DNA of 64,000 nt, taken from NCBI GenBank assembly GCA_001972305.1, contig BDDD01000567.1:1-64000 (forward strand), in the 5' to 3' direction. The first letter of the stretch is position 1; each line of letters starts with the position of its first letter. Origin of the DNA: Cephalotus follicularis (Eukaryota > Streptophyta > Magnoliopsida > Oxalidales > Cephalotaceae). The position numbers and the translations under genes were made by a program. The notes under the pieces were generated by a model. It saw nothing but the letters and a program-made list of their open reading frames with translations. It was not told where the DNA came from and made no database searches. Below are positions 1,707 through 33,767 of this stretch, piece after piece.

Positions 1707-2704
1707 CTTAAATTGTGGAAGCTTTTGATTAAAAAATGTGAGTTGCATTTGTTGAATTTATCTCTGCTGGTACAAAGACGTCGACTTCTTTGTGAAAGGC
1801 GTCGATGTCTTTTGGATGGTAGCCGTTGGAAGTGGTTAAACTAGACGTTCCAGCTTTCCCGGGTGTTGTCTTCTTGAAAAGGCGTCGACTTCTTTTTGAA
1901 AGACGTCGATGTCTTTTCTGGGAAATCTCCAGGTGCAGAGGCATTGAGTGTAACGTCGATCTCTTCCTTGGAGTCGATGCTTTTTCTGGGAATTATGAAA
2001 ATGGCGTCGATCTCTATTGAAAGGCGTCGATGTCTTTTACTTAGACGTCGATGTCTTTTGATTAAGGATCGATGTCTTTGAGTGCATTTTGATACAGAAG
2101 CTTCTGTTCCAAAAATGACTAATCCCGTCGATGTTATCACTGAAGTAGTCGATGTCTTATTTAATGTAGTCGACGTCTTCTGGAAGTAGTCGACTTCTTT
2201 TAGTACGGACGTCGATGCTATAACTGGGAGGACGATGCTTTCTTTGCAGTTAATTCTGTTACAAAAGGCGTCGATGCTTTTGGGAAAGGAGTCGACTTCT
2301 TTTTCTGCAGATGGTTTTAGACTTTGATATTCAACTTGTAATTCCTTGCACATCAAGTAACTTAGTTAGATGCAAATATGTTATCATCAAAACAAGGATT
2401 GGGACTTAATCGTCAATAGATGTCATTCATCAGTTTACACGAGGACATCGATGTCCTCCTCCGGATCGATGTGCATGTACATGCAGCTAAGTGCGCCCTT
2501 TTTCCACAAAGACGTCGACGTGTTTCCCCCAGAACAACGTCGTTTTAGCCTTTTTACATTCTTTTAGCATTTAACACTAAAATTCAACATTATAGAGATG
2601 GGAAAACATCACCAAATTCGGAAAATCCATCCTTTATTAATTTCACAACTCAAAAGTACAAATACATTGTGAAATTATAATACATGAAAATCTCGGGCGT
2701 TACA
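1707..2704 (-). mobile_element. Copia 5' LTR fragment with 21-bp palindrome array
   Basis: Read on the minus strand it begins TGTAACGCCCGAGATTTTC at 2704, a start closely like the LTR of Copia H at 62081. It ends near a TATA-like CTATAAAAGG around 1690-1700, directly against gag codons, so R, U5, primer site and gag start appear deleted. It carries many copies of a GACGTCGAYGTC-like palindrome (for example cores at 1780, 1801, 1884, 1905, 2006, 2026, 2047, 2068). The left boundary is inferred from where gag coding begins. Confidence 0.7.
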
Positions 2705-3043: not shown

Positions 3044-3149
3044 GAGCAGACAAGACCATGTAATTGCCGAGCAGACCAGACCATGTAACTGCTGAGTAGA
3101 TCAAACCATGTGACTGCAGAGCATACCAAGTCATGTGGCTGTAAAGCAG
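3044..3149 (+). repeat. 25-bp-period GAGCAG repeat
   Basis: GAGCAG-like cores start at 3044, 3069, 3094, 3119 and 3144, exactly 25 bp apart, in a unit resembling 'gagcagaccaagaccatgta'. Similar but less regular copies continue to about 3330. Confidence 0.75.
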
Positions 3150-3360
3150 ACCACCCTAAATGGTTGCACGATAGAGAAGACCTGCACTCTAGTGCTGCTG
3201 AGCAGACCTATCCACAAGGCTGCAAAGCAGGCCTGTTCTAGGTTACAGAGAAGGATAGTCTAATGCCAGAAGAGTCATGATCGCGTTGCTGAGCAGAGAA
3301 ACCAACGCAAATAGCGTGGCAGAGAAGAATAGTCCAGTGTGAATAGAGTTGTATGACATA

Positions 3361-3480
3361 GAAGCGCAATAGCGCTAATGGCAGAGAAGTGCAATAGCGC
3401 CAATCGCATAGAAGCGCAATAGCGCTAAGCACAAAAGAAGCGCAAAAGCGTGTCATGGCAGAGAAGAGCAGACCAGCGCT
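3361..3480 (+). repeat. 25-bp-period AGCGCT repeat
   Basis: The palindrome AGCGCT or a one-base variant recurs at 3371, 3396 and 3421 in a unit like 'gaagcgcaatagcgctaa'. It looks like a continuation of the 25-bp series upstream with a changed core. Confidence 0.7.
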
Positions 3481-3551
3481 AGTGGCGTTAAATGGTAAAT
3501 GTATAGCTATGAGAATTCACTTTTAGAAATAAACCATAAGGATTGACAATT

Positions 3552-3750
3552 GAGATGAGCCTTAAAGGGATCACCAACAGAGATGACCTGATGGATCACT
3601 AACTGAGATGAGCCCTAAGGGGATGACCAACTGAGATGAGCCATAAATGTCACCAATCGTGATGAATCAAATGGGTCACCAACTGAGATGAACCAAAAAT
3701 GGGGTCACCAACCGAGATGAACCAAAGTGGGTCACCAATTGGGATAAGTC
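3552..3750 (+). repeat. 25-29-bp GAGATGA repeat
   Basis: GAGATGA-like cores recur at 3552, 3580, 3605, 3633, 3659, 3685, 3714 and 3741, linked by 'tcaccaactgagatgagcc'-type units. Noncoding. Confidence 0.75.
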
Positions 3751-4729
3751 ATTGATTAATTGTTATTGATTATGATTGTTATGGATTGTAATTGTAAATC
3801 GAGAACGCTGTCCTAGGAGACTAGCGTCTAGGAGTGGTCTGACTAAGCTTATGGATAAACTCATTTCTCTTCTCTAGCCTATTTCTAGATATCGCTCTAG
3901 TCTGCTACCTAGGCTGAGGAGGCCAAGGAAAGCTTAAAAGTACTCCGAGATGGTTTTGGCATGATATGGACTCTGAATAATGATGGAATTGTATGGTTAT
4001 GGTATGGTGGAAATTGTATTGGCTATTATGGTTGATTATATAAACTGTTGCATTGTGGATCCTGCATGTCATGCATCCTCATGCTCTGCATATAGTAGTA
4101 CCTACACAACCAAGGGTTGCTGACCCATTCTCTAAAATAGGTCAGGTCCAGGTAATACAGCACAGTGATAGTCGGGCCAGATTGCAGAACAGGGCTTCTT
4201 TAGCAGAGCAGTCCCGAGTAACCTACCTTGTATAAGAACGCGAAGTGCATAAGAAGGTTTTAATTCATTATATGACCTGCCGACTTGTGGCAAAGCAATT
4301 GACATTGAATATTGTTGTAGATACATTTGGGTTTATCCACACATGGTATTGAATGGTTAAATTCTGCATGCATCATTGTGATATAAGTTTTAAATTATTG
4401 CACATTGTGGTGTATGGAAATGAATTGAATGAATGGCATCTCACGTGATGGGCAGTGGGGTGTGTGACAGGACATACGAGAATTGTTATTATGTTCTTGT
4501 TTAATAACTGGAATTAATATGACATATTGATATATTTGGAGTAATAATGCTTTTGGATGGTTAATATATTGAAATAGAGTATCCTAAAATGATTGTGGTA
4601 TTCTTGTGACATATTGAAGTAAATTAACTGATGATTCCTTCATCAGGAGTGTGGAAATAAATATATACTGTGGTTGAACTGCCGATTTTTAGTAGTTGAT
4701 TCCGATGTTATGCTAGTCAGAGCTCGAAA

Positions 4730-5235: not shown

Positions 5236-6193
5236 ATCTAAGGGACGTGTCATGTCATCGTTGGTATGGGATTCATAGGTAACCATCTTAGTACTATTAA
5301 TAATGTATTACAAGTGAACGGACTCAAACACAACTTGTTGAGCATAAGTCAATTATGTAACAAGAGTTGTAAAGTTGTTTTTGAAAAAGAACTTTGTAAA
5401 GTAGTAGACACCAATAATAACTCTACCAAGTTTATTGGTTATAGAGAGAGAAATATTTATATAGTTGATTTAAACAATTTATATTTACAAAATGTTGAAT
5501 ACCTTGTATCCATAAATGAGGATAGTTGGTTGTGGCATAAGAGACTCGGACTTGTCAATATGAAAACTCTTTCAAAAACTCTTAAACTTGGTTTAAGGTC
5601 TTCCTAAAATATCTTTCAAAAAGATAAAATTTTTTATGTTTGCCAACAAGGAAAGCAAACAAGAACTTTTAAAAGTAAAAATATAGTCTTTACAACTAGG
5701 CCGCTACAACTATTGGTCATTGATTTATTTGGGCCAATTGAAATAAGAAGTCTTGGTAGCAAATCATATGCTTTTGTTATTGTTGATGACTACTTTAGAT
5801 ATACATGTACTTTATTTCTTGCTCACAAAAGTGAAGTGTTTAAAGAATTTTGAAAATTTTGTAATAGTGTTCCAAAAGAGAAAGGTATTTCTACTTTGAA
5901 AATTAGAAGTGATCATGGTAAATAATTTGAAAATCATTTGTTTGAAGAATTTTGCAATGAAAATAGTTTTAAACATGAGTTTTCAACGACTAGAACTTCT
6001 CAACAAAATGGTGTTGTTGAAAGAAAAAATAGAACTTTAGAGGAGATGACAAGAACTGTTTTGTGAAAATAATTTACCAAAGTATTTTTGGACTGAAGCT
6101 ACAAACACTTCGTGTTATATTTCAAATAGAATATCAATAAGACAAATTTTCAAATAGACTCCATATGAGTTGTGGATAGAGAGAAAGCATAAA
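5236..6193 (+). pseudogene. Copia F pol, first part (pre-integrase and integrase)
   Basis: Codes for the pre-integrase domain (NGLKHNLLSISQLC, then WLWHKRLG) in an open run at 5266-5607. Integrase core follows in broken frames: IDLFGP (first D), RSDHG (second D) and QNGVVERKNRT (E). Several in-frame stops (near 5850, 5925, 6065) make it a fossil. The left end starts at the protease/pre-integrase border; gag and the 5' LTR are missing. At 6193 it is cut by Gypsy A and resumes at 43967. Confidence 0.85.
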
Positions 6194-8624
6194 TGTAAGC
6201 CCCATATTTTTTTTATATGTACGGAATTGTATGTATTTTGTTTGTACTTATATGGTATTATATGTATGGATGGCATGAATTGTACATAATATATACTATT
6301 TTCCCCTTTTATGGTTGTTTACGCGTAGTGAGGGTTCAATTGAACCTGATCGTAGCTTTTGAGATTTTTGCCTAAAAGAGCCTATATCTATATATATGCG
6401 GTTCAGTTCTTTCTATTCTCATTATCATTTCTCGTTCAATTCTAGAGAGAGAAAGAGTTAGAGAGAGAAAGTGTACGAGATCGAGCAAGGAATGAGTCGT
6501 TAGGATTGTGGCATAGTGTAGAACCTATAGGGAGAAACAGTTCGAGGATTCAAGCAGCATATTCTTTGTTCTCAGCCAATTTGAAGTAGGTTCTACATAT
6601 GCTTTGATTTCCATATTTTTGATGGATTTGCATGATGGTATGGTTATGGATAGCTGTATACTTGCTAGATGAATGGAATAGGGTATTTGTTATGGTTTAA
6701 AACGAATTGAAATGGGAATCAAAGAGAGAATTGAGAGTGTAGGTTTATAAGCCTAATCCATTTTCTCTCTAGATTCATGAGTTATGGGCACGGATCTGAA
6801 GGGTTAAAGTTGTTTTTATGTTACTATCAATCATAGGGGCATATAGCAGCCTTTGGATCGAATTTAAATGGATTTAAATGGTTTTAAAATGGATTTTACA
6901 AACGATTTGACGAACTGCCCATTGATGTCAAACCGTCGACACTTTGGCTATAGCGTCGACGCTTTGATCGCGCAAACCGTCGACTCTTTCATGTAAACGG
7001 TCAACACTTAAGGACCAAACCGTTGACGTTTTGATTAAAGCGTCGACGCTTTATGTGTTACAAAATGATTGACGCTTAGTGTACGCGTCAACGCTTAAGG
7101 CAAAAACACTTTAACCTTCGACGCCAAGCACGAAGGCGTCGACGCTTAGGAGCTAACCGTCAACACTTTGGACGAAGCAGTCGATGCTTAGCGCCCTGTT
7201 TCAGCCAAATCACATTGTTTTCAACCCCAAATGGTTTTCTCTTCAAATGGATTCCATAAGAAGCCTCCCTAAGGCCTTGTAACCTATGTGAATCCTCTTT
7301 TAACACATTTGATTTCTAAATCAATCTTCAAATAAATCTTTAAAGAAAGTTTCATCAAAAAGGGGTTTTATACAAATGGTTTTCAATAAATGGTTAGGAT
7401 AGCTCAATTGGGACATTTGGACGCGGATATCCTAGTTGGACTTCCTCTCCATCGTTTTACAACTTCGATAGGGACCAACAAAATGGAAAAAAGTTTTGGA
7501 AATGGTTATGAAAAAACGATTATGGAAACAGCTACAGAAAACGGTTTTGAAATGGTTTTGACGGAGTGGATCCTATATGATCCTTTATATTAGGTCCATA
7601 TCATTTTTACGGTTATACAGATATGGGCTACGGGTATGGTACGGTTATGATTGATGGTTTGTTATTGTTTAAGACCTAACGGGATAACCCATTCATAATC
7701 TTTATTTTCGTCATGAAGTATTATGGGTGCCAGGCCACATTTATAGATATGAAATACTCCCTTTTTGGGTGACCTACGAGCATCACCGCTCTGTGGATGG
7801 ATATAGTATGGATATGGCATGGTTATGGCATAGATCGCATAGATCTCTATTACGAGCTAGTACCTTCGGGACTAGTAATACGAGCTGCTACCTTCAGGGC
7901 TAGCATTACAATATGGATTATGTGGCCGGTGTTATCCTATGCTCCACACAGCTATGGCACGAAGAGTGTATATACGGTGGGGGTATTATCTCGGGCCGAG
8001 GTGACAGAGAAGTACTTGACCCTATGGATTGTTTGTCCCCATGGATGGTTATGGATTGTCTGCAGGCCTATGGCCTTTGATGTGATTAGGACTAGCCAAG
8101 TATACCACCCCTTAGGGACGGCTGGTATACTGAAACTATCCACAATTGGCATTCATGCATATAACATGTCATGCATATATATCTGTTATATCTGTTGCAT
8201 TCCATTGCATATAGTATAGCCTACACAGCCATTGGTTGTTGACTCATTCTTGCAATGAGTCAGGTTCAAGTGAAGCACCGAAGTGATCATACGGACCGAA
8301 TCGCAGCACAGGATTTCTTGTAGCAGTGCAGTTTCAGTCATCTACCTTGTGTATACGAATTTGGATGTATAAGAGACATTTTGTATTTCATCTATTGACT
8401 TGCCGGCTTGTGGCAGTGCCTAAGATATATGTATCGAATATTATGGAAATGGTTCGGCTTATCTATATGAATGTTGAATGTGTTTCTTCCGCATGCATGT
8501 TGTGTATTAAAGTTTTGAATTTGTAACGTATCTTGGTGTATGATGCTACATATGTGATGGATAGTATGGACGGACCTGCCAAGTGTCGAGCCTTGGGGTC
8601 TTCCTTAGGGTTCGGGGTGTGACA
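6194..8624 (+). mobile_element. Gypsy A 5' LTR
   Basis: 2431 bp, TGTAAGCCCC...GGGGTGTGACA, clearly the same sequence as 41596-43966. A GA-rich leader near 6430-6500 follows a TATATATA-rich stretch at about 6387, the likely promoter. It contains the GTCGAC palindrome array at 6935-7185. The frames open at 7390-7593 and 7797-8219 are not genes, since they sit inside the LTR and lack family similarity. Confidence 0.92.
6935..7185 (+). repeat. GTCGAC palindrome array, 20-22 bp spacing
   Basis: Twelve cores (exact GTCGAC or one to two changes) start at 6935, 6955, 6979, 7000, 7022, 7042, 7068, 7087, 7117, 7138, 7159 and 7180. The full form is the 14-bp palindrome AAGCGTCGACGCTT. Spacers vary in sequence, so it is not a simple tandem copy. 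The same array, with small deletions, is in the 3' LTR (42333-42440). Confidence 0.9.
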
Positions 8625-11720: not shown

Positions 11721-11725
11721 TGACA

Positions 11726-14411
11726 TGTAACACCCCGTAACTTTTTGGAGCTTTAAGAGTTCTTTTTAAGTTGATAAATATGCTTTCTTTTAAGTTTTGG
11801 GCTTATGTGTAATAATGGACAAGAGGAGGAAGTGTTAAGCCAAGGTTTAAGTGAGAATTGTGGAAGTTGGAGGACTTAAGTGCCAAGATTGTTGGGATTA
11901 GTGTCGAGATATTTTGGTGTTAGCCTTTCTTCTCCTAGCTTCTGCCGAGTAGAGTTTAGAGAGAGAGAGAGAGAGAGAGAGAGAGCTCTAGTTTTCTTCT
12001 TCTTCTTCCTCGTTCTTGCGCCTAGACCAGTAGCAGTTGAAGCTTTTCGAGCACAGTAGTTGAAGAAGCAGACAAGGAAAAGGAAAGAAGCAGACAAGCT
12101 AGAGGAAGAGAGTAGCAGAAAAGATGAGAAGTTAACGTTGAAGGAAGTGGCAAGAACTGTGAGCGGGACATCATTTCCTTTAAAAAATTCATTGTACATC
12201 ATATGTTCTTTGAGAATCCTTTTCCTCAGATTCAGTTTGAGTAAGTGAGTTATGATGGGAAGTTGTTTTCCCTAATGTCCTATGTTAACCATTCTTTTTT
12301 AGTGGAGTGTTCCCAGAGTCCAGAGCAAGATGTTATGTATCCTTTATATCGATCATCTTCGGATGAGATGACGTGTACGTGTTCACCCCCCTCCTCAGCA
12401 TACCTATTGTCTATGATGGGTTGTTGAGCGAGTCTGCCCCTGGGTTCCATACCTGGATCTCCTTACATTGTGGCTAGGACAGTGTACAGGGTTTGAGTGC
12501 AGCCAAACACATATGTACAAGCTCTTCCCTCCTCAGCCTATCATCACAGGATGAGAAGTTGAGTGAGTTTGTCCCTGGGTTCCATACCTGGATCTCCTTG
12601 CATTGTTGCTAGGATAATGTATAGCGGTTGAGTACAGTTGAGCTAAGTTATCAGATACAGTAGTATAGAGAGCCTTTCAGTAGGTTTTCTAGAGGAGGAC
12701 CTTGTCCTCGGACTTTTAGTCCCCAACCCAGCGTTCAGTGAAGCAGTAAGCAAAGTACAAATGAGTCGGCCGGTAAGTTGCCCAGCTCGGCTTAGGCCAA
12801 AACAACAGAAAGTACAGATGAGTTGGTATGTAAGCTGCCCAGCTCGGCTTAGGCCAAAAAAAAAACCAGCTCAGCTCAGGCCACTATAAGTTGGCAAGTA
12901 TATTTATGTAATCAGCAAATCAAGCACAGCAGAGAAAAGCCAGTTCCCAACTTAGTTGTTCTCCTCGGGTGTTTAGCCGGGAAGGACCCCAGTTCTTTTT
13001 CAGATCTCTTTCTTTTAAGCAGTTGTATTCTTATGTTTATTTCAGCTTTCATGAATATTCTAGAACTATCTAAGCAGAGAAAAGAGTAAGTTTTCTTCAA
13101 GTACCTTGAGCGGTCTTTATTGTATGCCATGACGTATATTTTGCTTATAGCTCACTTCCCCAATTGGGATATTAATCATGTTTACGGTAAGTTTTCTTCA
13201 GCGCATTCCTTTCATGAATGCAACGGAGGATGTTTTCTTCCCAGTCACTTAGTCAATTGGACTAATCCCCTCACATATTGTTTTGCAGATCAGCCAACCA
13301 GAGGAGACCATCCAGCCCAGCAGTAGATAGCTAAGAAAGGTAGTTTTTGAGCTCAGTACCATGGAACGTCAGCCCGGCATTTAGCTTTGCATTGCATTGG
13401 GCATTCTTTCGGGTTCCCTTACCTCCTTTTTGTTGTAGGGTTGCCGGGAGATGTTTTGCTATGATATTCTTTTGATGTAAAGAAAGATAAGGATATGTTA
13501 TTCTTTTGTCGTGCCTGGGGAGGCAGTGTATGTTATGCCAGGGCACAAATATGTAATGATTTTATACTTTCAAGAAAGTTTATGGATGTTTTGAGATAGT
13601 AGATTTGTTTATTTTGTGATTTCGTGGATATTTCATGTCATGAGTTTTTAGTTATCAGATATATCCCGGGTACTGGGGAGCCCTTGGGTTTCTAGCGGGG
13701 GACAGCCCAGCAGGGGTGCTATTTTTATTCTTGGGAGCACGGGTTATGTTTAAAGAGATTTACCCCGGGGAGGCAGGGTGTCCCGAGGGTGATGACGATG
13801 TTGGGTTTAGACAAGGGAGCAGGGAAGGTGTCCCTGGAGAGAGTGGCCAGGGGTGCCATGTTGGAGTAAGGCCCGTGACGAGTTATATGTTAAGTGCTTT
13901 ATGTTTTAAGTTAAACGGTGCGTTTGATGTCTGTTTTGTTATGTGATCCTTAGGGACGTGCAGAGGAGGTTGTACGCCGGGGGACAATATATGTATGCGT
14001 GGTCTCGAGTGTGGAGTTTAAGTGATCACATGAGGCGTGCGTGGTATTCTCCCCGGGCGCTTATGTTGGTTTCTCCCCGGGCGTTAGTTATGCGCAGCGT
14101 TTTGGAACTTGAGCTAAGGATGTTTTAGCCCGAAAAGGAGAAAGACTCGAGGACAAGGGGTGTCCCCGGCCATGTTGGACCACAGGTTGTTAAGAGAGCT
14201 CGTGAGAAGCACATGAGCGCTATCTTCCGGGGCTTTATGTTTGTTGCGCTTGTAGCCCAGGTCTTCTCTACGGGCTTTTTGCGGGATATGTTCCTGGGGA
14301 GTTTTAAGACAGCTCCTCAGACAGTTTTAGTTTGAGAGGGTTGTTGGCAAGAGGAGCGCCATCCCTGGCAAGACACGTGTCCCATAGAGTTAGCAGGAAC
14401 GGATCCTGACA
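11726..14411 (+). mobile_element. Element B 5' LTR
   Basis: 2686 bp starting TGTAACACCCCGTA and ending CCTGACA. A GA microsatellite lies at about 11958-11985. An internal duplicated block ('ttccatacctggatctcctt') occurs at 12446 and 12578, and a 'cagctcggcttaggcc' unit repeats at 12780-12880. It lacks about 40 bp near 11895 that the 3' LTR keeps. No gene: frames here (such as 11876-12202) are low complexity. Confidence 0.93.
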
Positions 14412-14414
14412 ACA

Positions 14415-14427
14415 TGGTATCTGAGAG
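14415..14427 (+). other. Element B primer-binding site
   Basis: TGGTATCTGAGAG three bases after the LTR, matching initiator Met tRNA 3' complement except one or two bases. Confidence 0.85.
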
Positions 14428-14539
14428 TAGGTTTGGGTTTTTTCTTGTGCTTTCTATGTTAGTTAGTGGGATATCTTTTGGGTTGCATTCATGCATTTCA
14501 TCTAGGTTACGACGATACCATGATACGTTAGTATGTTGC

Positions 14540-15670
14540 TATAGAAGTCGATGCACCTTGGACTCGTAGCGCTATTCGTGGCAGTGGTCGGGGCAGAGGA
14601 AGAGGCAGAGGAAGAGTGAATCCTCGCCAGACTGTGGAGCAAGAGGTTCCTATAGAAGAGCCAGAGGAGCAAGCGAATGTGGGAGCATAAGGACAGGGAG
14701 CTCGATAGGTACCAGAGGAGCCTATCCCAGCAGCGCAATCAGCCGCGCGTATGCCTCTGCCAGTACCTACCAGTGGACCTATGGAGATGATGCAGGCACC
14801 AACGATGTGGGCTCAGACTATGGGTTTAGTCAGACCCTAGCCTCTTCCGATCGAAAGCATGCAACGGTTAGGTGCGATGTTGTTTGAGGGAACCGGAGAC
14901 CCCATGGATGCAGAGGTATGGTTGAACCACCTTGAAGAGATCTTCACGTGGCTTGACATAGCAGAGGATTCACGGGTAAAGAGTGCATCCTTCTTTCTTG
15001 CAAGAGGTGCTGAAAGATGGTGGGAAGCTCTTGTAGCTTAGCACGAGAGCTCGGCAGAGATCACATGGGAGAAGTTCAAGAAGGAGTTAAGCAGTACTTC
15101 TTTCGACCTACGTTTGTTCAAGAAAAGAGAAGAGAGTTCTTTCATCTGCGGCAAGGAAACGGATATGTGTTCCAGTACGAGTACCAGTTCATGGAGTTGT
15201 CACATTTTGCTCCAGCCCTTGTAGTAGATCAAGATGAGAGATGTCAAAAGTTCCTGGAAGGACTAAGATTCGAAATCAGGCACATGGTATCCGTCACCCC
15301 GTGGTTGGTGTTCGGCGATTTGGTGGAAGCTTCCAAGAGAGTAGAGTCCAGCTTAGCAGATCAGCAGGAGCGTCAAGAGCAAGGACGGAAGAGATCTTTA
15401 TCTCAAGCAGAGCAAGCAGAGAACCCCTCCAAAGTTCAGAAGCAGTGGTGACCTCAGTCCTTAGGCAACACCTGAGGTGGAGCCTCTCAGCAGACACAAA
15501 CTGCCCCAATTGCTAGCAATGTACAAGGGAGTTCCTATTAGAGAAACAGGTTACCTCTGTGCCAAGTTTGTGGTAAGTCCCATTTGGGGGAATGCAGGAA
15601 AGGAAGTTAGGGATGCTACAGATGTGGCGAGGTCGGGCACATAAAGAGAGATTGTCCCCAGCAATCTCTT
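14540..15670 (+). pseudogene. gag: Element B gag
   Basis: Retrotrans_gag-type protein in broken frames. A Gly-Arg repeat (GRGRGRGR) comes near the N-terminus, then FEGTGDPMDAEVWL, ARGAERWWEAL, a frame change near 15040, then FHLRQGNGYVFQYEYQFMEL and FLEGLRFEIRH. It ends in a good zinc knuckle, CYRCGEVGHIKRDC, near 15618-15660. Stops near 14689, 14840, 15040 and 15450 make this copy dead. Gag would coat the element RNA; with no pol, the element relied on a partner. Confidence 0.85.
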
Positions 15671-16037
15671 AGTGAAGTGATGACTCCCATGGTAGCACCA
15701 GCAGAGAAGCAGGCTCCAAGCAGTGGAGTAGCTAGAACAAGCCAGCAGGCGATAGCACCAAGAACAAGTTTTTCAGCACCTTAGAGCAGCACCGCCAGAG
15801 CTAGTGGTGGCAGACCTCCAAGCAGAACAGGGGCTACAGCAATAGTTTACTCCCTTCTTAGAGGGGCGGATATGACAGCACCAGACATGCCACCAGGTGA
15901 GATCTTGCATTCTATGTTTCTCCTTTAGTAGGAAGTTAAGTTATAGTATCTGTTAGTTGAGCATGGTTGCAGAGAATCCCTAGATGATAGAATGGTTTTC
16001 CCTACGGTTAGACTTGAGGAATTTTGAGGACAAAATT
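15671..16037 (+). other. Element B gag tail and 3' untranslated region
   Basis: Begins as a Ser/Pro/Ala-rich tail after the zinc knuckle. It ends in a short stretch near 15990-16040 reading FPTVRLEEF then a stop, resembling the end of a Gypsy pol. That may mark where pol was deleted. No other gene visible. Confidence 0.5.
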
Positions 16038-16054
16038 TCCTAAGGTGGTGAGAA
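16038..16054 (+). other. Element B polypurine tract
   Basis: The purine-rich stretch CTAAGGTGGTGAGAA directly precedes the 3' LTR start at 16055, the position of the plus-strand primer. Confidence 0.75.
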
Positions 16055-18780
16055 TGTAACACCCCGTACCTTTTTGGAGCTTTAAGAGTTCTTTTTAAGT
16101 TGATAAATATGCTTTCTTTTGAGTTTTGGGCTTATGTGTAATAATGGACAAGAGGAGGAAGTGTTAAGCCAAGGTTTAAGTGAGAATTCTGGAAGTTCGA
16201 GGACTTAAGTGCAAAGCTTGTTGAGGAAGATTCCAACTTCCAAGACATATAATGGTTTAAGTTGGGATTAGTGTGGAGATATTTTGGTGTTAGCCTTTCT
16301 TCTCCTAGCTTCTTCCGAGTAGAGTTTAGAGAGAGAGAGAGAGAGAGAGAGCTCCAGTTTTCTTCTTCTTCTTCTTCCTCGTTCTTACGCCTAGACCAGT
16401 ACCAGTTGAAGCTTTCTGAGTGCAGCAGTGGAAGAAGCAGACAAAGAAAAGGAAAGAAGCAGTCAAGCCAGAGGAAGAGAGTAGAAGAAAAGAAGAGAAG
16501 TTAACGTTGAAGGAAGTAGCAAGAACTATGAGTGGGACATCCTTTCCTTTAAATATTTCATTGTACATCATATGTTCTTTGAGGATCCTTTTCCTCAGCT
16601 TCAGTTTGAGTAAGTGAGTTATGATGGGAAGTTGTTTTCCCTAATGTCCTATGTTAACCATTCTTTTTTAGTGGAGTGTTCCCAGAGCCCAGAGCAAGAT
16701 GTTATGTATCCTTTATATCGATCATCTTTGGAAGAGATGACGTGTACGTGTTCACCTCCCTCCTCAGCGTACCTATTGTCTATGATGGGTTGTCGAGCGA
16801 GTCTGCCCCCAGGTTCCATACCTGGATCTCCTTACATTCTGGCTAGGATAGTGTACAAGGTTTGAGTGCAGCCAAACACATATGTACAAGCTCCTCCCTC
16901 CTCAGCCTATCATCACAGGAAGAGAAGTTGAGTGAGTCTGTCCCTGGGTTCCATACCTGGATCTCCTTGCATTGTTGCTAGGACAATGTATAGCGGTTGA
17001 GTACAGTTGAGCTAAGTTATCAGATACAGTAGTATAGATAGCCTTTCAGTAGGTTTTCTAGAGGAGGACCTTGTCCTCGGACTTTTAGTTCCCAACCAAG
17101 CATTCAGTGAAGCAGTAAGCAAAGTACAGATGAATCGGCAGGTAAGCTGCCCAGCTCGGCTTAGGCCAAAACAACAGAAAGTACAGATGAGTCGGCAGGT
17201 AAGCTGCTCAGCTCGGCTTAGGCAAAAAAAAATAGAAGCTCAACTCAGGCCGCTATAAGTTGGCAAGTATATTTATGTAATCAGCAAAGCAAGCACAACA
17301 GAGAAAAGCCACTTCCTAGCTTAGTTGTTCTCCTCGGGTGTTTAGCCGGGAAAGACCCCAGTTCTTTTTCAGATCTCTTTCTTTTAATCAGCTGTATTCT
17401 TATGTTTATTTCAGCTTTCATGAATATTCTAGAACTAGCTAGGCAAAGAAAAGATTAAGTTTTCTTCAAGTACCTTGAGCGTTCTTTATTGTATGCCATG
17501 ACGTATATTTTGCTTATAGCTCACATCCCCACTTGGGATATTAATCATGTTCATGGTAAGTTTTCTTCAGCACATTCCTTTCATGAATGAAACTGAGGAT
17601 GTTTTGTTCCCAGTCACTTAGTCAGTTGGACTAATCCCCTCACAGATTGTTTTGCAGATCAGCCAGTCGGAGGAGACCCTCCAGCCCAGCAGTAGATAGC
17701 TAAGCAAGGTAGTTTTTGAGCTCAGCACCATGGAACGTCAACTCGGGCGTTTAGCTTTGCATTGCATTGGGCATTCTTTCGGGTTCCCTTATCTCCTTTT
17801 TGTTGTAGGGTTGCGGGGAGATGTTTTGTTATGATATTCTTTTGATGTAAAGAAAGATAAGGATATGTTATTCTTTTGCCGTGCTTGGGGAGGCAATGTA
17901 TGTTATGCCAGGGTACAAATATGTAATGATTTTATACTTTCAAGAAAGTTTATGGATGTTTTGAGATAGTAGATTTGTTTATTTTGTGATTTCATGGATA
18001 TTTCATGTTATGAGTTTTTAGTTATCAGGTCTGTCCTGGGTGCTGGGGAGCCCTTGGGTTCCAGCGGGGGACAGCTCAGCAGGGGTGTTATGTTTATGCT
18101 TGGGACCACGGGTTATGTTTAAAGAGCTTTACCCCGGGGAGGCAGGATGTCCCCAGGGTTATGATGATGTTAGGTTTAGGCAAGGGAGCAGGTAAGGTGT
18201 CCCTGGAGAAAGTGGCCAGGGGTGCCATGTTAGAGTAAGGCCCGTGACGAGTTATATGTTAAGTGCTTTATGTTTTAAGTTAAACGGTGCATTTCATGTC
18301 TGTTTTGTTACGTGATCCTTAGGGACGTGCAGAGGAGGTTGTACGCCGGGAGACAATATATGTATGCGTGGTCTCGAGTGTGGAGTTTAAGTGATCACGT
18401 GAGGGGTGCGTGGGTTTCTCCCCGGGTGCTTATGTTGGTTTCTCCTCGGGCGTTAGTTATGCGCAGCGTTTTGGAACTTAAGCTAAGGATGTTTTAGCCT
18501 GAGAAGGAGAAAGAGCCGAGGACAAGGGGTGTCCCCGGGCTTGTTGGACCACAGGTTGTTAAGAGAGCTCGTGAGAAACACGTGAGTGCTCTCTTCCGGG
18601 GTTTTATGCTTGTTGCACGTTTAGCCCAGGCCTTCTCCATGGGCTTTTTGCGAGATAGGTTCCTAGGGAGTTTTAAGACAGCTCCTCAGGCAGTTTTAGT
18701 TTGAGAGGGTTGTTGGCAAGAGGAGCGACATTCCCGGCAGGACACGTGTCCCATAGAGTTAGCGGGAACGGGTCCTGGCA
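16055..18780 (+). mobile_element. Element B 3' LTR
   Basis: 2726 bp, TGTAACACCCCGTACC...GGTCCTGGCA, collinear with 11726-14411 and only slightly diverged, with the extra 40-bp block and a GA microsatellite at about 16330-16351. Open frames here are noncoding. Confidence 0.93.
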
Positions 18781-19058: not shown

Positions 19059-19574
19059 TGTACTGTTCACGATTTTTGAATGTTTTAAAATTTATACCGC
19101 AAGTGCACGGTTGTGCAGTAACAGGTCGAAGGCTAGGAAACAAGCTAAATTAATTTTAATCTATCCAACCTAGACGAAGTATGCAAAATCAAGGGTTGTT
19201 TATCAAAATCTACTCCTAAACATGCAAAATAAACTAAACTACTGATACAGGAAAGAAAGGCGTCGACGCTTTGTCACTAAGCGTCGACGGTATGACTTGA
19301 AACAATGAAAGCGTCGATGTTAAGCGTCAGCGTAACTATGAAATAACACTGAAAGCATCGATGCTATTGAGGGAAGCGTCGACGGTTAAGCAAGCTGGGA
19401 AAAAAATAAAACAAAATAAAACAGGTAAACACTATATTAACATAACAAAATTAAAACTGGATAAAAGATGTAAGATTAAATCGGTTTTAGGGTATAGAAA
19501 CTCACCATAGATTATATTGAATAAGTTACTTACTTGAATGAGCAAACCTTGGTAACCAATGGCAGCAAGGTCAA

Positions 19575-19735
19575 TACGGAGTGCGACTTTGATGACAAAT
19601 CGTATGAGTAGTCATAATAGGTCTATACAGAGTGTGGCAGCGACGACAAGTCGCATAAGTAGACATTCTATGTCTATACAGAGTGTGTTCGGTGTGACAA
19701 ACCGTATGAGTAGACTCCATTGATTGCGTTAAAAA
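19575..19735. repeat. 60-70-bp tandem units in element C
   Basis: About two and a half imperfect copies of a unit containing 'gtatgagtagac' and 'tctatacagagtgtg', noncoding. Confidence 0.7.
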
Positions 19736-19999
19736 CCATTCATTCAGCAACATTCTTATTCACCGACAAAGTATTTGTGGATTTTAATCAAACAGACAAA
19801 GTGTGTGTGAATGCAGAAAATTGAAGAATAAATCAAAACTTCAAGGATTTTATTAATGGAGTTGAATCAATACAATCTAGGCTTTGTTCTAACCCTAAAA
19901 ACCTTGAGAAATTAGCTACTAAACATTGAAAATAAACTTACAAAAACTAAAGGAAGAAGAAGGCGGCTAAGAGGGAAGCTCACACTGTGTATGGCCGGC

Positions 20000-20030
<31 letters not shown>

Positions 20031-20293
20031 CCTTGCGCACAGCTCCCTCGCTCTTGCGTTCTCTCCTTTGGCGTAAAATGAATGCGCCATACTCAAAAAC
20101 ATTTGTGTTATGGGCCCATTTTTTTAAAAGTCGAGGCATTACACTAGTAATCATTATGCTCTAGTGCTTTGTGTGAATTTCCAGAAGATGAACCATACTT
20201 CTCACAATTGTCGCTAGTACTTAGGTCTTGCCTGGCTTGCAATGGTACTGGTCATCTTCTTGCGCATATCTCTCTCTCTCTTGTGTTCTCTCC

Positions 20294-20305
<12 letters not shown>

Positions 20306-20348
<43 letters not shown>
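20306..20348. repeat. (TA)n(CA)n microsatellite
   Basis: A TATATA run (20292-20308) passes into about 20 CA repeats. The ORF reading HTHTHT here is an artefact. Confidence 0.95.
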
Positions 20349-20350
<2 letters not shown>

Positions 20351-21391
20351 ACAAACTGATTAAAAGCAGAAATGAAATAAACTAATTACAATCCGGGCAA
20401 AAATCAAAACTTTCCACTTTTGTTGTTGCCGTAAGCGTCGACGCTTTCATTTAAACCGTCGTCGGTTTGTCACTTGTCATTTGGTGTTGGCGCTTTAAAA
20501 TACAAAGGAAAACTTGATCCGCGTTTTAGTTGTTAAGCGTCGACACTAATGTGGAAAGCGTCGATGCTTTGTACGTGAAATAACATTAAGCAGACTTGAA
20601 TGATGTTGGCGTTTTGTGCAAAGGTAAAGCTCCTAACTAGCAGACTTGACGCCACAAGAGAACATGCATGTCGAGCAAACCATGAAGAGAATCTGATCAG
20701 TGCATGAAATGAACTTTCTGAGCATGCAGTGTTAGCAGAGCATGAAACCAGACCAGCCAAACACATTGCCGAGCGGAGAACATAATGCCAGACTAGTAAT
20801 GCTTGCAAGACCATGAAATTCCAACTAGAATGTAATTGTACCGAGCATACCTTGGATTTTCGAGCATCAGACTCGAAAATTTGGCAGAGGAGTGTTAAAA
20901 ATGCCGAGCAAAGAATGAACGTGCCGAGCATGGATGCCAAGAAAACTATCAAGAACATCCGAGCAGACCAACAATGCAAACCAGTGCTAGTCGGATCAAA
21001 TCATGGGATGTTGTGGTGATCAGACCATTAAGTTCAGAGCAAAGCAGGCTTTGCAAAGCAACATTGCTGAACAATCAAACCAGAGCACCAAGTCAGAGAA
21101 AGCCATAAGAAAATGCTAAGCGAATCAGAGAACATAGTTGGTGTAGAGAAGCTAAGCGTCGACGCTTCTAATGTACCATCAACGCTTTAAATTTAAGCGT
21201 CGACGCTTTAAACTAACCCGTCCACGCTTTAAACTGTAATTTGTGCCAATTTAAGTCAATTTTACTGCACTTTGCTCGTTTCTCCCTTGTACCTACAAAT
21301 CAATTATAAACAACCCAAGTAATCTGATCAAAGCATAAAAATATAACAATTAAGTCGTTAAAAAAAACATATTTTTATGCTAAACATGTAC

Positions 21392-21582: not shown

Positions 21583-22735
21583 TGAATAAACTACAAGAGG
21601 GGGGGGAATTGTAGTTTCTAATAATTTAGTTAACTTTTTCACAAATTCAAGTTAATACTATGAACACGATGTATATATGCAATCAAAGGTAAATAAATAA
21701 AATAATTAAAGAGAGAGAGTAAGAGAGTTGCAAACACGGTTTTAGAGTGGTTCGGCTTAACTCTTGCCTACGTCTACTTTTCCCAAGGATCTCCTTGAGT
21801 TTCCACTAGTCTCTGAATAAATTTGCAGGCATTATTCGGTGCACTTTTACACTTTGTCCGTGATTGACCTCAATCACTTACAATTCTTTGGGTTCACTCC
21901 CCTACTACAATCAAGGTTTATAATGAAGATTTTGTGTTTGATCTTAACCTCTCAAAGGTTGGATTTTACAAGATAAAAACTCTCAAACTAATATGAATAA
22001 CAATAGGCTAAGGCACAAAAAGAACTTTGATATCAAGCTTTGATGATCTTGGTTGGACTCTTTGCAATTGATGTTGTTTCCTCTTTGTATATTGATCACT
22101 TGTATACTTGTTGTTATTGTTCTTCTTGTTCTCTTTTTGTTTATAGCCATTTTTTATTTGAAATATCCATTGGTAGTGTCATGGTGCTTGTTGCTTCAAA
22201 GACGGCGCATTAAAAATCTGCCAGAAATTGTCTCCAGTGCGCAAAGCGTCGACGATGTTCTTCAAAGCATCGGTGCTTATATGACCGTTGGAAGTTTAAA
22301 TTTGAATCTTTGCTCTAAGCGCTGGCGGTCTTGAATTTTGGGGTCGACGGTTGTCCTCAAAGCGCCGACGGTTTGCGTTGAGCGTCGACGCTTTGGGAAA
22401 TTTTGATTGACCCAAAAGTCCCTGTTTTTAACCGCTGATGTAGCCCTCTTAAGCACTGGCGCTTAGCCTCAAAGCACTGATGCTTTCCTCAGAGCGTCGA
22501 CGATTGGACAATTTCTTCTTTGCTTGTAATGCTTCCAACTGTTGGCGCTTTGTTCCCAGCTTTCAACGATTCCCTTAAGCGCTGACGCTTACTTTTAAAG
22601 CGTCGACGCTTTAACCTGTAATTCCAATTTTCTGGTTTGTTTTGCAACATTCTTTCTTTTCTTGCACATAAAGAAACTTTGTTAAAATACAAATATGTTA
22701 TCATCAAAATTAGGATTGAGACATAAATGTCAAAA
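21583..22735 (-). mobile_element. Copia D 3' LTR
   Basis: 1153 bp. On the minus strand it begins TTTTGACATTTATGTCTC (the paired LTR has TGTTGACA, so a base has changed) and ends TTGTAGTTTATTCA. GTCGAC-type cores lie at 22248, 22269, 22343, 22364, 22384, 22454, 22476 and 22496. A poly-G/C tract lies close to the outer end. Confidence 0.92.
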
Positions 22736-22750
22736 ATCTCCCCCTTTTTT
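22736..22750 (-). other. Copia D polypurine tract
   Basis: Minus strand AAAAAAGGGGGAGAT directly next to the LTR start. The same tract precedes the 3' LTRs of E (37515) and H (62066). Confidence 0.9.
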
Positions 22751-23357
22751 ATGATGACAAAATTTGCTATACATTTAGACAAGTTAAGAGTATTATAATG
22801 CATAATATGCAAAGCTCGTAAGTTAAACAAAGTTTTAACTCCCCCTCAATTTATAACCTCCCCCTTAGAGTGGTAAGGGGTATTTAACTTGTCATTGCTT
22901 TCTCCCTATCAATTATCTCCCCATCTCTTCCTATATTTTCTATACCAATCTCCCCATTTTTATTAGCATTTCAAAAAGGAATGAACTATTTTTAGTCAAT
23001 ACACTTATAATTCTTCCAATAAAATTAATATCATATTTCAAGATATCTAGTGTATAACTCAATATCATCGAATCATTGAATATTAACATATTCAACTAAC
23101 ATTATCATTCAATTCAAGACATTAAACTTAACAACATCATAAGTTCAGATTGCATAAAGAGATTAAACCATTGACAATCATTCAACGCACAACAAAATGT
23201 CAATCTTACAAATATTGTTTTCGTAGTTCAGACATAGAAATAGATTGCAAACTATCATAATGTTAATCAAACAAACTTCATTACAAGTTTAACAAGATGT
23301 TTTTCAAAAACACATCATAAAACCATAATGCAAAATGAAGAATGAAATGCATGATGC
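22751..23357 (-). other. Copia D 3' untranslated region
   Basis: Noncoding, AT-rich, between the aORF and the polypurine tract. It contains further CCCCCT-type tracts (22835-22870), the minus-strand equivalents of the AAGGGGGAGTTA repeats of element E. Confidence 0.7.
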
Positions 23358-24603
23358 TCAGTCATCCATGGGAGTATCTTTGTCATCATTGTGTCCATCC
23401 AAGTCTCCCAGCTCATCAGTAGCTCCTTCATCCTCTCTTTGAGTAGCTTCAGGTTCGTTGCTCGAGGATGTGATTAAGCTTTCATCTCCAACCATTCCTT
23501 TTGCCACAAGTCTTCTTGCCATTCTCTCTTGTCTTCTCTTGATGGTTTGAACATCGAGCTTGATGTCTTTGACCTCTTGTTGTATGCCTTTGATCACTTC
23601 CAAGAGTGCTTCGAATTGAGTGCTTGGCATGTTGACATTTCATGGCGGATTGACTTGAGGCTCATGTGCAGCTTCTCCTTGAGCTTCATCATCCATTTCC
23701 TCACCTTCCTCATCTTCAATCATCCTATTTGAATCCTCTTCTCTCAGGATCCAAGTGCCTAGTCTCTTGTGCTTCTTAAATCCCATTCTACCTAGAGTCC
23801 CCTTGCCTAACTTATCTGCACTTTGGAGTGTATGATGTAGTTCTCCACTGAAGTCTACTCCAAAATGCATGAGGATTTTTGTGATGATATTGCTATAGGG
23901 TAAGCGTGCTTTCTCCCTATTGTGCATAGCGTGCATATGGTTGATGATTAGCGTAGGTACATTGATCTTTTGACCCGTGATTATATGGAACATTGTATAA
24001 GCCTCCATGTGGGTCACTTCATCAAAACCACCGGCCTTTGGTAATATATGTGTGGCTACGGCACGGTGTAAAAATCTATGATGCAAACTAAGTTTCCTAG
24101 TGTACATTCGTTGCATCACATCAGCATTTTCTCCAAACAACATTCGCACAATTCATCGTTAATAATCTAGTTTCGTTGATTCCATCCCCTAGCACCTTCA
24201 CATGGAATCTCTAAAATTGAAGCTAAGGTTGCATAATTGAATTTTATCTCCTTATTCTTAACACTTGTGCTTAAGCTTACACTAGAGCTAGAAAGGATTT
24301 TTACATAAAATTCCTTCATTAAATCGGGATAATTAGGCAAATTTATGCTAGACAAAGGAGATAAACCTAGTCCCTCCAACCATCCTACAATGGGGAACCC
24401 TTCTCTATTGCAAAAGTCAAAGTTTAGAGTCTTTCCTACAAGAATTTGCGGTTAAAGTAAGCTTCGGGATACCTTATGACAGGAGGAATCTCTTCTGGCA
24501 TGGGTGGATCAACAGTTGCAGTTCCTTTCTTGTTCTTTTGTCCCATGTGCTTTACTTTCTTTCTGGATATTTGCCCAGCTTCAATGCTCTTTGTTTTCGG
24601 CAT
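23358..24603 (-). pseudogene. Copia D accessory ORF (aORF) after pol
   Basis: Starts MPKTKSIEAGQ at 24603 and runs through RYPEAYFNRKFL, EGFPIVGW, LASILEIPCEGARGWNQRN, FLHRAVATHILPKAGGFDEV, HMEAYTMFHIITGQKINVP and FKKHKRLGTWILREEDSNR to an acidic tail with a Lys/Arg-rich coiled coil (about 23530-23600), ending DTPMDD at 23358. It is in three open pieces (24660-24436, 24379-24167, 24149-23640) plus 23630-23358, so it has a few breaks. Copies in E (35779) and H (60279) are clearly homologous. I recall this as the 'putative plant transposon protein' family; function unknown. Its place matches the env-like ORF of SIRE elements, but I see no signal peptide or membrane helix. Confidence 0.8.
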
Positions 24604-25041
24604 GTTTAGTGATTTTAGTGATGTATATGTGTTATCGAAGAGAAATCGATCCAAAATCACCGAAAGTTGGTTTTTGGGGGTTTAGGGTTCTAATTTTTGC
24701 GCTAGAAAAGTTTGACAGATGAAGGAATCTGTCTTATAGTCCGACTAAAGTGTCGACGCTTTTTATTAAAGCGGCGTCGCTTTGTGCAATTATAAATTTC
24801 GAGCCCTAATTTTAGTGTTAAAGCACTGACGCTTGAATTATAGGCGTCGGCGCTTTGCATGTTTTGTAAAGTTCTAATTATAGGTGAGGTGTTAAGCGCT
24901 GACGCTTAGATTTTGGACGTCGGCGCTTTGCTCTGTTTTTCGGCCGATTTTATGAATTCGCGCATGAATAAGTGCAAATGATGCATCAATGAACAAATAA
25001 GCATATCAAGCAAACATATATGAACATACCAATCATGTTAA
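24604..25041 (-). repeat. Copia D pol-aORF spacer with palindrome pairs
   Basis: Noncoding. GTCGAC-type cores occur in 21-bp pairs: 24825/24846 and 24898/24919, plus 24752 and a GGCGTCGC variant about 20 bp further on. The equivalent spacers of E and H have similar elements. Confidence 0.75.
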
Positions 25042-25677
25042 TCATTCAATTTCACACAACCCTAATTCTAATCTAAATTTCGAGAAAGTTTGTTCATCTA
25101 AGGGTTTTGTGAAGATGTCCACGACTTGTTCTTGAGTCAGAACGAAGACTAATTCAATGTCACCTTTCTCAATATGGTCTTTAATAAAATGATACCTAAT
25201 ATCAATATGTTTTGTCCTAGAATGATGTACGGGATTTTTTCCTAGACAAATTGCGCTTGTGTTGTCACACATAATCGGCACTTTTTCAAAATTAAAGCCA
25301 TAATCAAGTTGTTGTTTCATCCATATTATTTGTGCACAACAACTTCCGGTGGCAATGTACTCAGCTTCGGTAGTGGAAAGAGCTACCAAATTTTGTTTCT
25401 TGCTAAACCATGAAATGAGCATATTGCCTAAGAATTGACAAGTGCCACTTGTACTTTTTCTATCTACTTTGTAGCCTCCGAAATTGGCATCGGAGTATGT
25501 GTGCAAGTCAAATGACGAATTCCTAGGATACCATATCCCTAATGAGGGTGTATAAGCTAGATACTTAAAAATTCTTTTTACCGCATACAAGTGGGCTTCC
25601 TTAGGGCATGCTTGAAATCTAGCACATAAACACACACTAAACAAGATATCCGGCCTACTAGCCGTTAAATAAAGCAA
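25042..25677 (-). pseudogene. Copia D RNase H
   Basis: 211-aa open frame: SRPDILFSVCLCARFQACPK, TYSDANFGGYKVDRKSTSGT, ALSTTEAEYIATGSCCAQ, HHSRTKHIDIRYHFIKDHIE, TQEQVVDIFTKPLDEQTFSK and LGLCEIE at the natural stop. This is the C-terminal RNase H that degrades the RNA strand during cDNA synthesis. The motif acidic residues are present; the frame upstream breaks near 25680. Confidence 0.9.
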
Positions 25678-26516
25678 CGAACCTATCAGGTTCCATAAAG
25701 TTTTTGGTCTATAGGTTTACCTTGTTCGTCCTTATCTAACTTAGTAGTTGTGCTCATCGGGTCTTACTTTTCTTGGAGCTTTCCAATCCAAATATTTTGA
25801 GTAGGTCTTTGACGTACTTGGATTGGTTGATGAAGATTCCTTCCTCTAGTTGTTTGACTTGAAGTCAAAGGAAATAGTTTAGCTCTCCCATCATGCTCAT
25901 CTCAAATTCGCCCTGCATAATCTTAGCAAAATTCTTGCACAATTTTTCATTAGTAGACCCAAAGATGATATCATCAACATAAATTTGAACAATCAAAATT
26001 TCTTTATTCAAAGTTTTTGTAAAGAGAGTTATATCAATTGTTGCTCTCTTAAATCCCTTTTGAAGTAAGTAACTACTTAGTTTTTCATACCAAGCTCTAG
26101 GAGCTTGTTTCAAGCCATATAAGGCTTTAGAAAGTTTGTACACATGTTTTGGCAAAAGAGGGTTTTCAAACCCGGGAGGTTGTTCCACATACACTTCCTC
26201 CCTTATTACACCATTTAGAAAAGCACTTTTTACATCCATTTGGTAAATGGTGAAATCCTTAAAGGATGCATATGCTAGTAACATACATATGGATTCTAGT
26301 CTTGCTACGGGAGCAAATGATTCATCAAAGTCAATTCCCTCTTCTTGGGAATATCCCTTAGCAACTAACCTAACTTTATTTCTTATCACTATTCCTTGAT
26401 CATCTACTTTATTTCAAAACACCCATTTAGTACAGATTATGTTTTGGTCATTAGGTCTACGAACTAGATTCCATATTTTATTTCTTTCAAATTGGTTTAA
26501 TTCCTCTTGCATTGCA
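25678..26516 (-). pseudogene. Copia D reverse transcriptase
   Basis: RVT_2-type RT. The main open block at 25865-26389 shows [52 protein letters not shown] and the active-site YVDDIIFGS. The flanking link (25681-25864) and the N-terminal KWVF region (26390-26516) are frameshifted. The catalytic box itself is intact. Confidence 0.9.
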
Positions 26517-27027: not shown

Positions 27028-27066
<39 letters not shown>

Positions 27067-33743: not shown

Positions 33744-33767
33744 ATTGCTAGAGCCTTACAATCTAGA
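33744..33767 (+). other. Copia E primer-site region
   Basis: ATTGCTAGAGCC follows the LTR, where ATTGGTATCAGAGCC would be expected for an initiator-Met primer site. D has the same TGCTAGAGCC. Confidence 0.6.

Follow-up and report, generated by a model that had tools for sequence, protein, structure and literature searches.

An array of palindromic boxes in a Ty3/gypsy LTR

We analysed a 64,000-bp window of the Cephalotus follicularis genome (contig BDDD01000567.1, positions 1 to 64,000), which is a nest of plant long terminal repeat (LTR) retrotransposons, and all the statistics given here come from this one window of one genome. The feature in question is an array of 12 palindromic boxes centred on GTCGAC-like cores at 6935-7185 (plus strand), 742-992 bp into the 5' LTR of an old Ty3/gypsy element, called G1 below. 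It turned out that the array is one instance of a window-wide feature, found in Sirevirus-like copia, gypsy and solo LTRs, and that its boxes probably act as cis-regulatory sites for a symmetric DNA-binding protein, as argued below from spacing, symmetry and the comparison of related LTRs.

The 5' LTR of G1 (6193-8624, plus strand) matches a second LTR at 41595-43966 with 87% identity, and an open reading frame (ORF) with a Retrotrans_gag domain (PF03732) begins at 9267, which confirms that the array lies in a gypsy LTR, as the first-pass annotation of this DNA had stated. The other interior domains are RVT_1 at 11230, RVP_2 protease and Integrase_H2C2 at 31309, and SH3_Tf2-1 at 41085. With Retrotrans_gag, an RVT_1-type reverse transcriptase, an H2C2 integrase and SH3_Tf2-1 between two LTRs, G1 has the composition of a Ty3/gypsy element. 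The two LTRs can be read as the ends of a single old element whose interior has been broken by insertions, and its continuity across these nested insertions is judged from collinearity with a related element, G2.

The 12 cores lie at 6935, 6955, 6979, 7000, 7022, 7042, 7068, 7087, 7117, 7138, 7159 and 7180, and the 11 intervals between them (20, 24, 21, 22, 20, 26, 19, 30, 21, 21 and 21 bp) are exactly those listed before. Of these cores, five match GTCGAC exactly, six differ from it at one position and one differs at two (ATTGAC at 7068). The consensus box of the array is AASCGTCGACGSTT, while the full motif AAGCGTCGACGCTT has a single exact occurrence, at 7038. The spacers are not copies of each other, again in agreement with the first reading, as the identity between adjacent units is 0.31 over six spacer columns. 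In the 3' LTR a copy of the array was located by alignment at 42333-42530 (plus strand), without one 6-bp stretch and a block of three boxes that are present in the 5' LTR.

The array is far denser than chance within its own LTR. The 2432-bp LTR contains 13 sites with at most one mismatch, of which 5 are exact and 11 fall inside 251 bp, and 7 pairs of sites are 19-22 bp apart; for these four counts, 300 Markov simulations of the LTR gave means of 5.8, 0.22, 2.3 and 0.05 and maxima of 12, 2, 6 and 2, respectively. Besides, the range of 19-22 bp holds 8 of the 11 intervals, where random gaps would place 2.5 (p = 0.0004).

Distribution of the boxes among the elements

The feature was thus placed correctly at first, but its extent was understated, since it recurs throughout the window, with 64 exact GTCGAC against 4.7 expected. 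The longer motif CGTCGACG occurs 26 times (0.07 expected), and among the hexamers listed with at least 8 occurrences, the top observed/expected ratios belong to CGACGC, CGTCGA and GTCGAC. Most of the exact cores (55 of 64) are inside the listed LTR and solo-LTR intervals, which cover 29,238 of the 64,000 bp. Four of the other nine (24752, 35624, 60029 and 60123) are in copia linkers, with or near other boxes, and five were counted as background (9822, 26937, 41086 and 57938 in ORFs, 39800 in a gypsy pol fragment). We delimited 15 arrays by eye, omitting one LTR of each pair: C0, E1 and E2 in copia LTRs, G1, G2 and H in gypsy LTRs, I1-3, K1-2 and M1-2 in solo LTRs, and N1-2 in an LTR at the right end of the window.

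Among the copia elements, the C0 array (1780-2296, minus strand) has 16 sites of the flavour aagacATCGACgtctt and lies in the LTR of an element with gag (PF14223) at 126-1694 of the minus strand; the ten best relatives of this gag ORF, 82-90% identical over 68-98% of its length, are from Cephalotus follicularis. The E1 array (22248-22607, minus strand) is in the 3' LTR of a Sirevirus-like element with LTRs at 21583-22734 and 30079-31208, and its copy in the 5' LTR is at 30722-31081. The E2 array (32695-33034, plus strand) is in the 5' LTR of another Sirevirus-like element (LTRs 32637-33747 and 37599-38693), with a copy in the 3' LTR from 37657. Two of these arrays are upstream of TATAAA, as C0 occupies 114-625 of its LTR with TATAAA at 711, and E1 occupies 127-481 with the first TATAAA at 589. 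According to PMC2829016, AGGGGGAG octamers with an AT/TG junction are a hallmark of Sireviruses. E2 contains five of these polypurine octamers after its env-like ORF and before the 3' LTR (37322, 37394, 37413, 37432 and 37519), the last of which is followed by the AT/TG attachment site, as expected of the genus; all 10 octamers of the window are located in E1, E2 and a third copia element.

For the gypsy elements, the G2 array (46253-46432, minus strand; spacings 20, 21, 20, 21, 31, 29 and 32 bp) is homologous to that of G1. The LTR of the H array (38969-39060, minus strand) begins at 39294, also on the minus strand, and adjoins a fragment (39532-40126) matching the pol region of G2. Three solo LTRs are each flanked by a perfect 5-bp target duplication: I (19064-21386; TGTAC) with arrays at 19262-19383, 20437-20565 and 21158-21225, K (50660-53344, plus strand; TAAGC) with arrays at 50833-50907 and 51952-52059, and M (53762-56322, minus strand; CAATA on the plus strand) with arrays at 55964-56121 and 55043-55199, mostly of the flavour GC..GS. 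The arrays of LTR N (62223-63436, plus strand), at 62223-62360 and 63227-63436, have the flavour CA..TG; this LTR starts at 62081 and its right end is beyond the window. The boxes are not universal, because the gypsy element E3 (11725-18780) contains no exact GTCGAC.

Boxes of the form AAGCN6GCTT, with a degenerate centre, occur 25 times in the window (1.0 expected). Some of them are in the E2 linker at 35474-35633 (plus strand), upstream of an env-like ORF with the PF20167 domain, and similar linker boxes were found in the E1 linker (24752-24907) and in the third copia element (60029-60128). The linker boxes upstream of PF20167 ORFs (24769, 24821 and 24894; 35474, 35600 and 35620; 60098) belong to copia elements only, in which the env-like ORFs are at 23640-24152, 36002-36712 and 60192-61172. 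In the copia LTRs (22240-22640), there are further boxes with AAGC/GCTT ends and an altered, non-symmetric centre, such as CCAG and TCAG.

The insertions inside G1 are E3, solo LTR I, the copia element E1 (21583-31208) and, at 32031-40968, an insert containing E2. E3, a gypsy element with gag (PF03732), has LTRs of 2.7 kb (11725-14411 and 16054-18780) around an interior of only about 1.6 kb with a gag fragment, and is perhaps a deletion derivative or a non-autonomous element. The insert at 32031-40968 has an inverted repeat of about 515 bp at either end (32038-32553 and 40454-40968; 87% alike), with E2 between them, and may be a DNA transposon or two oppositely oriented LTR pieces. The start of LTR N (TGTAACGCCCGGG, 62081) directly abuts the terminal polypurine tract, of Sirevirus type, in the copia element at 57713-62080 (region 62070-62110), yet it resembles the start of LTR H, which is a gypsy LTR, at 76% over 86 columns. 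Either the junction received a gypsy-like LTR or the LTR of the copia element is an unusual one. Dense tandem repeats with units of 25-28 bp occupy 3044-3752, near a piece of gypsy LTR.

Spacing and helical phase

All of the 15 arrays contain an adjacent pair at 19-22 bp, and 46 of 84 adjacent gaps are in this range. A peak at 20-21 bp, proposed earlier as a check on the array, is present within the window, where 47 pairs of sites are 20-22 bp apart, whereas 2000 jittered sets had 8.4 such pairs on average and never more than 20. Among the 64 palindromic hexamers, the enrichment of 20-22-bp spacing is highest for GTCGAC (15-fold per bp); the two hexamers that follow have a single pair each, and the highest value based on more counts is 3.8-fold. 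Longer gaps are also concentrated, as 8 of the 12 gaps between 23 and 38 bp are 29-33 bp long (p = 0.012, post hoc).

The first-pass annotation went further and proposed that all sites face the same side of the DNA. Nearest neighbours are often about two helical turns apart, but whether the 12 cores in G1 share a face depends on the assumed period: coherence R is 0.34 at 10.2 bp (p = 0.2), 0.50 at 10.5 bp (p = 0.008), 0.68 at 10.7 bp (p < 0.001) and 0.22 at 21 bp (p = 0.67), and the best-fit period is 22.55 bp. Compared with randomly placed sites, within-array coherence over all arrays is strongest near 10.2 bp (z 8.4) and 20.4 bp (z 9.4). Leaving out any one of the 15 arrays keeps the best period within 10.15-10.20 bp, but leaving out both C0 and G2 shifts it to 22.3 bp; by group, the best period is 10.2 bp for copia, 22.55 for gypsy, 10.3 for I, 20.75 for K, 10.9 for M and 10.15 for N. 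The adjacent gaps outside 19-22 bp (35), taken alone, show no significant phase (p 0.06-0.20 at 10.0-10.5 bp, 0.87-0.88 at 20.4-21 bp). Because the long-range phase depends mainly on C0 and G2, our claim is limited to the spacing of nearest neighbours and does not extend to a single common face.

Symmetry of the boxes and divergence of the spacers

The palindromes extend beyond the core. In a set of 55 exact sites, with one LTR of each pair omitted, the first flanking base is complementary across the dyad in 35 sites (22.7 by permutation, p = 0.0006) and the second in 27 (17.5 by permutation, p = 0.0018). Further out, covariation has p = 0.12 for the third base, 0.016 for the fourth and 0.06 for the fifth, with none beyond. 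The flanks are also alike within an array, since the identity of two bases per side is 0.595 within arrays and 0.398 with permuted labels. Three flavours can be distinguished, which are AASCGTCGACGSTT in G1, G2, E1, E2, H, I and M, CAGTCGACTG in K and N, and AAGACATCGACGTCTT in C0, and the common core variants in the arrays are GTCGAC, ATCGAC and GCCGAC. Several C0 boxes (aagacATCGACgtctt, 1780-2296) also hold GACGTC, the C-box of bZIP factors, beside the TCGA core.

A switch of flanks is seen between the solo LTRs K and M, which are homologous (61% over 1.7 kb, E 1.6e-83) and have arrays at two matching places, about 0.2 and 1.1-1.4 kb from the LTR start, between or within the homologous blocks. 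In K, the core is preceded by A in 10 of 10 sites and followed by T in 10 of 10, and its first array precedes the first TATAAA (507) while the second lies after it. In M, the core is preceded by C in 12 of 13 sites and followed by G in 8 of 13 and by A in 4, as decay of CpG would give. The difference is the same in both arrays, the change from C to A is not CpG decay, and the spacers did not converge. Unless the flanks are recognised by some factor, such a switch is difficult to account for. The arrays may instead have been exchanged with those of another family, but our sequence comparison showed no spacer similarity to indicate it.

These data bear on a different origin, in which the arrays are decayed minisatellites of 20-21 bp whose single founding unit was duplicated in tandem, and the CpG-rich core is just a remnant. 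Tandem Repeats Finder does report short 21-bp arrays at 7118-7191 and at several other places, and spacer identity within arrays is slightly over background (0.347 vs 0.281), with higher values in C0 (0.57) and G2 (0.50). However, the units of a minisatellite should be alike over their whole length, and apart from the higher values in C0, G2 and I3 this is not what we found. Between adjacent units, the flank columns 4-7 from the dyad, which were not used in the choice of sites, have an identity of 0.52-0.76, whereas columns 9-13 have 0.22-0.39, with one at 0.48; the six core columns (0.72-0.96) are high partly by construction, because the sites were chosen by their core. Duplication of a unit also does not account for flanks that covary across the dyad, for gaps of 29-33 bp, or for K and M, whose flanks differ in both arrays, 1.1 kb apart, with spacers that are not alike. 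Besides, a neutral relic should lose its three-CpG core first, because CpG sites decay fastest in these LTRs. A minisatellite is thus an unlikely explanation of the arrays, and its plain decayed 21-bp form, which the first-pass annotation had named as an outcome that would speak against its proposal, is not supported, given the covarying flanks and the nearly unrelated spacers.

RNA structure and CpG content

The palindromes could also function in RNA, by pairing in the transcript and forming hairpins that feed small-RNA silencing or have another RNA function. A hairpin or RNA role has been proposed for the palindromes of maize Sireviruses, over whose clusters small RNAs are in excess (PMC10760457). 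In our window, folding is stronger in the arrays than in their dinucleotide shuffles (z -5.5 for G1, -3.8 for K2 and -5.4 for G2), and when the boxes are held fixed and only the spacers are shuffled, a slight excess persists in all of the 8 arrays tested. This excess is small (z -0.06 to -1.92), so most of the RNA structure follows from the boxes alone. Moreover, pairing in RNA would need no 20-21-bp spacing, and hairpins would be costly to the element if they attracted silencing, which makes an RNA-level element rather improbable.

The arrays are rich in CpG. The observed/expected ratio is 0.74-2.19 in the arrays and 0.26-0.84 in the rest of the LTR, and it is higher in the array in all of the 11 arrays tested (of 15), although the excess in N2 is marginal (0.74 vs 0.70). 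Outside the boxes, the 5' and 3' LTRs of G1 differ at 0.32 of CpG sites and at 0.075 of other sites, mostly by transitions, and this fourfold divergence of CpG suggests that the element was methylated for a long time. One may then ask whether the arrays are purely a chromatin signal, in which CpG-dense steps every two turns place nucleosomes or draw CpG-binding or methylation machinery and no sequence-specific dimer is involved. Both the CpG enrichment and the overall periodicity peak at 10.2 bp, close to the helical repeat of nucleosomal DNA, are in line with this. But the specificity of the boxes, with symmetric covariation of the flanks, goes far beyond CpG density, the K flavour CAGTCGACTG keeps the spacing in 7 of 8 adjacent gaps with one CpG and not three, and the peak at 10.2 bp vanishes without C0 and G2; we consider a pure chromatin signal very unlikely. 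The reading of the 21-bp interval as the length of 21-nt small interfering RNAs, offered earlier as an alternative, is not supported, as small-RNA length would give no ground for dyad-symmetric sites in DNA.

Proposed function and candidate readers

From the density, spacing and symmetry of the boxes we infer, with somewhat more confidence than doubt, that the array is a cluster of palindromic cis-regulatory LTR boxes for a symmetric, most likely dimeric, DNA-binding protein. The first-pass annotation had suggested a platform for a dimeric protein or an LTR enhancer, and covariation across the dyad together with 19-22-bp spacing in all 15 arrays supports a regulatory element of this kind, at the level of sequence. 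In the mechanism that we propose, each box (AASCGTCGACGSTT in G1) would be one binding site of a symmetric dimer, and since sites repeat mostly every two helical turns or so, several dimers could sit side by side. The bound dimers might raise transcription from the LTR or prevent its silencing. Copia, gypsy and solo LTRs would use one factor or a small family of related factors, which is probable because their arrays are of one kind and differ in symmetric flanks that are specific to the family.

Several observations weigh against this interpretation. The limits of the arrays were drawn after the sites had been seen, and the array count does not include a sixteenth stretch, at 2430-2530, which has only one site. 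Spacer identity within arrays exceeds background (z 8.9), being highest in C0, G2 and I3 (0.67, from one pair), so tandem duplication has contributed to the arrays. The shared helical phase of the cores reported in G1 hinges on the period chosen. The place of the G1 array relative to the promoter is ambiguous, as TATA-like words flank it on both sides, at 96 and 195-197 of the LTR before the array and at 1775 and 1982 after it. Finally, comparison of box sites with other sites across LTR copies and families gave no clear conservation of the boxes. Between E1 and E2, the CpG sites of boxes differ at 0.167 and other CpG sites at 0.284, but non-CpG sites differ at 0.292 in boxes and 0.232 elsewhere; between G1 and G2, the differences are 0.33/0.29 in boxes and 0.36/0.33 elsewhere; between K and M, boxes differ slightly more than the rest (0.56/0.48 vs 0.53/0.44); and between the two E2 LTRs, the non-CpG sites of boxes differ at 0.18 and the others at 0.04.

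bZIP proteins bind as dimers to palindromes with family-dependent flanks, and by analogy a host bZIP is a plausible candidate for the reader of the boxes. For instance, the Arabidopsis bZIP protein FD is reported to recognise motifs containing ACGT or TCGA, GTCGAC among them, and mutation of GTCGAC in the FT promoter de-repressed a reporter and lowered the FD signal in chromatin immunoprecipitation (PMC13360168). Among the matches listed in our literature search, to whose scope preprints and most subscription papers did not belong, this was the only plant paper with a "GTCGAC motif". The matches listed for CBF/DREB proteins contained nothing that links them to LTR boxes, and those listed for Cephalotus LTR retrotransposons contained nothing about such boxes.

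A self-encoded reader is less likely. In that case a dimeric protein made by the copia elements, possibly the env-like PF20167 protein, would bind the boxes and keep the LTRs active or unsilenced, the gypsy LTRs would have acquired these boxes and ride along, and factor and boxes would change together, as in the switch between K and M. In 5 of 5 homologues examined, the PF20167 protein has no hydrophobic segment of membrane-spanning strength (by a hydropathy threshold), a basic N-terminus and an acidic C-terminus, so that it resembles a nuclear protein more than an envelope. Searching solved structures by profile gave one non-significant match (E 0.37), and in Pfam the three proteins matched only PF20167, plus a weak coiled-coil match below the cut-off in one. 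We give such a system very little credence and rate it lower because a host bZIP that reads GTCGAC has already been reported. If true, it would be a VANC-like arms race in retrotransposons across superfamilies.

One kind of box with about two-turn spacing in copia, gypsy and solo LTRs points to one or a few factors acting across superfamilies, and would link the evolution of LTR promoters, escape from silencing and competition between families in plants.

Comparison with known systems

The core variants GTCGAC, ATCGAC and GCCGAC fit (G/A)(C/T)CGAC and so recall the C-repeat/dehydration-responsive element (CRT/DRE; RCCGAC) of CBF/DREB proteins, of which a barley CBF is reported to prefer GTCGAC-like sites. 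CRT/DRE sites are short and non-palindromic, however, and leave the 14-bp dyad and the covariation of the boxes unexplained.

The FD sites in the FT promoter (PMC13360168) are single and belong to a host gene, whereas the boxes here form spaced arrays in retrotransposons. In the Drosophila gypsy insulator (PMC2374998), 340 bp of the 5' untranslated region contain 12 Su(Hw) sites, comparable with 12 sites in 251 bp in G1; the Su(Hw) consensus is different and non-palindromic, the system is an animal one, and the parallel would be one of function. Another functional parallel is offered by the VANDAL transposons, which have dense arrays of short motifs in noncoding parts and whose targets differ between related families, as do K and M (PMC5735166 and PMC10398659). 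VANDALs themselves encode the VANC protein, which binds the motif and counters silencing by removing DNA methylation, and the VANC21 motif YAGTATTAY is arrayed in one orientation; the binder of the boxes here is putative.

The nearest counterpart is the repeated motif (RM) boxes of Sireviruses (Bousios et al. 2010, PMC2829016). Both are dyad-symmetric and CpG-rich, with many copies in the LTR and element-specific flanks, and in copia elements both occur ahead of the TATA box and a second time in the linker that precedes the env-like gene. RM boxes form CpG islands, for which the measure taken here is the CpG observed/expected ratio given above. The Vitis Sirevirus RM box CGGTCGACCG is centred on GTCGAC, the same centre as here. 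RM boxes are dyad-symmetric with at least 8 copies per element, and G1 (12 boxes) and C0 (16 sites) reach this number, while E1 and E2 have 6 sites per LTR array (at most one mismatch) plus degenerate and linker boxes; linker copies upstream of an env-like gene are present in the copia elements only. There are three differences. RM boxes have a CGG-CCG signature, to which Tnd-1 is named as an exception (PMC2829016), and the boxes here (AASCGTCGACGSTT or CAGTCGACTG) are without it. RM boxes are called Sirevirus-specific and absent from classic retrotransposons (a Ty1/copia set), and our boxes are also in the gypsy elements G1, G2 and H and in solo LTRs. Finally, our boxes prefer a spacing of 20-21 bp, and the available portions of PMC2829016 contain no spacing analysis of RM boxes. 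The array in G1 would therefore work like RM boxes but is not filed as one, because the CGG-CCG signature and the confinement to Sireviruses fail. In conclusion, judged by their sequence, the boxes appear to be like RM boxes, without the CGG-CCG signature and present in gypsy elements as well.

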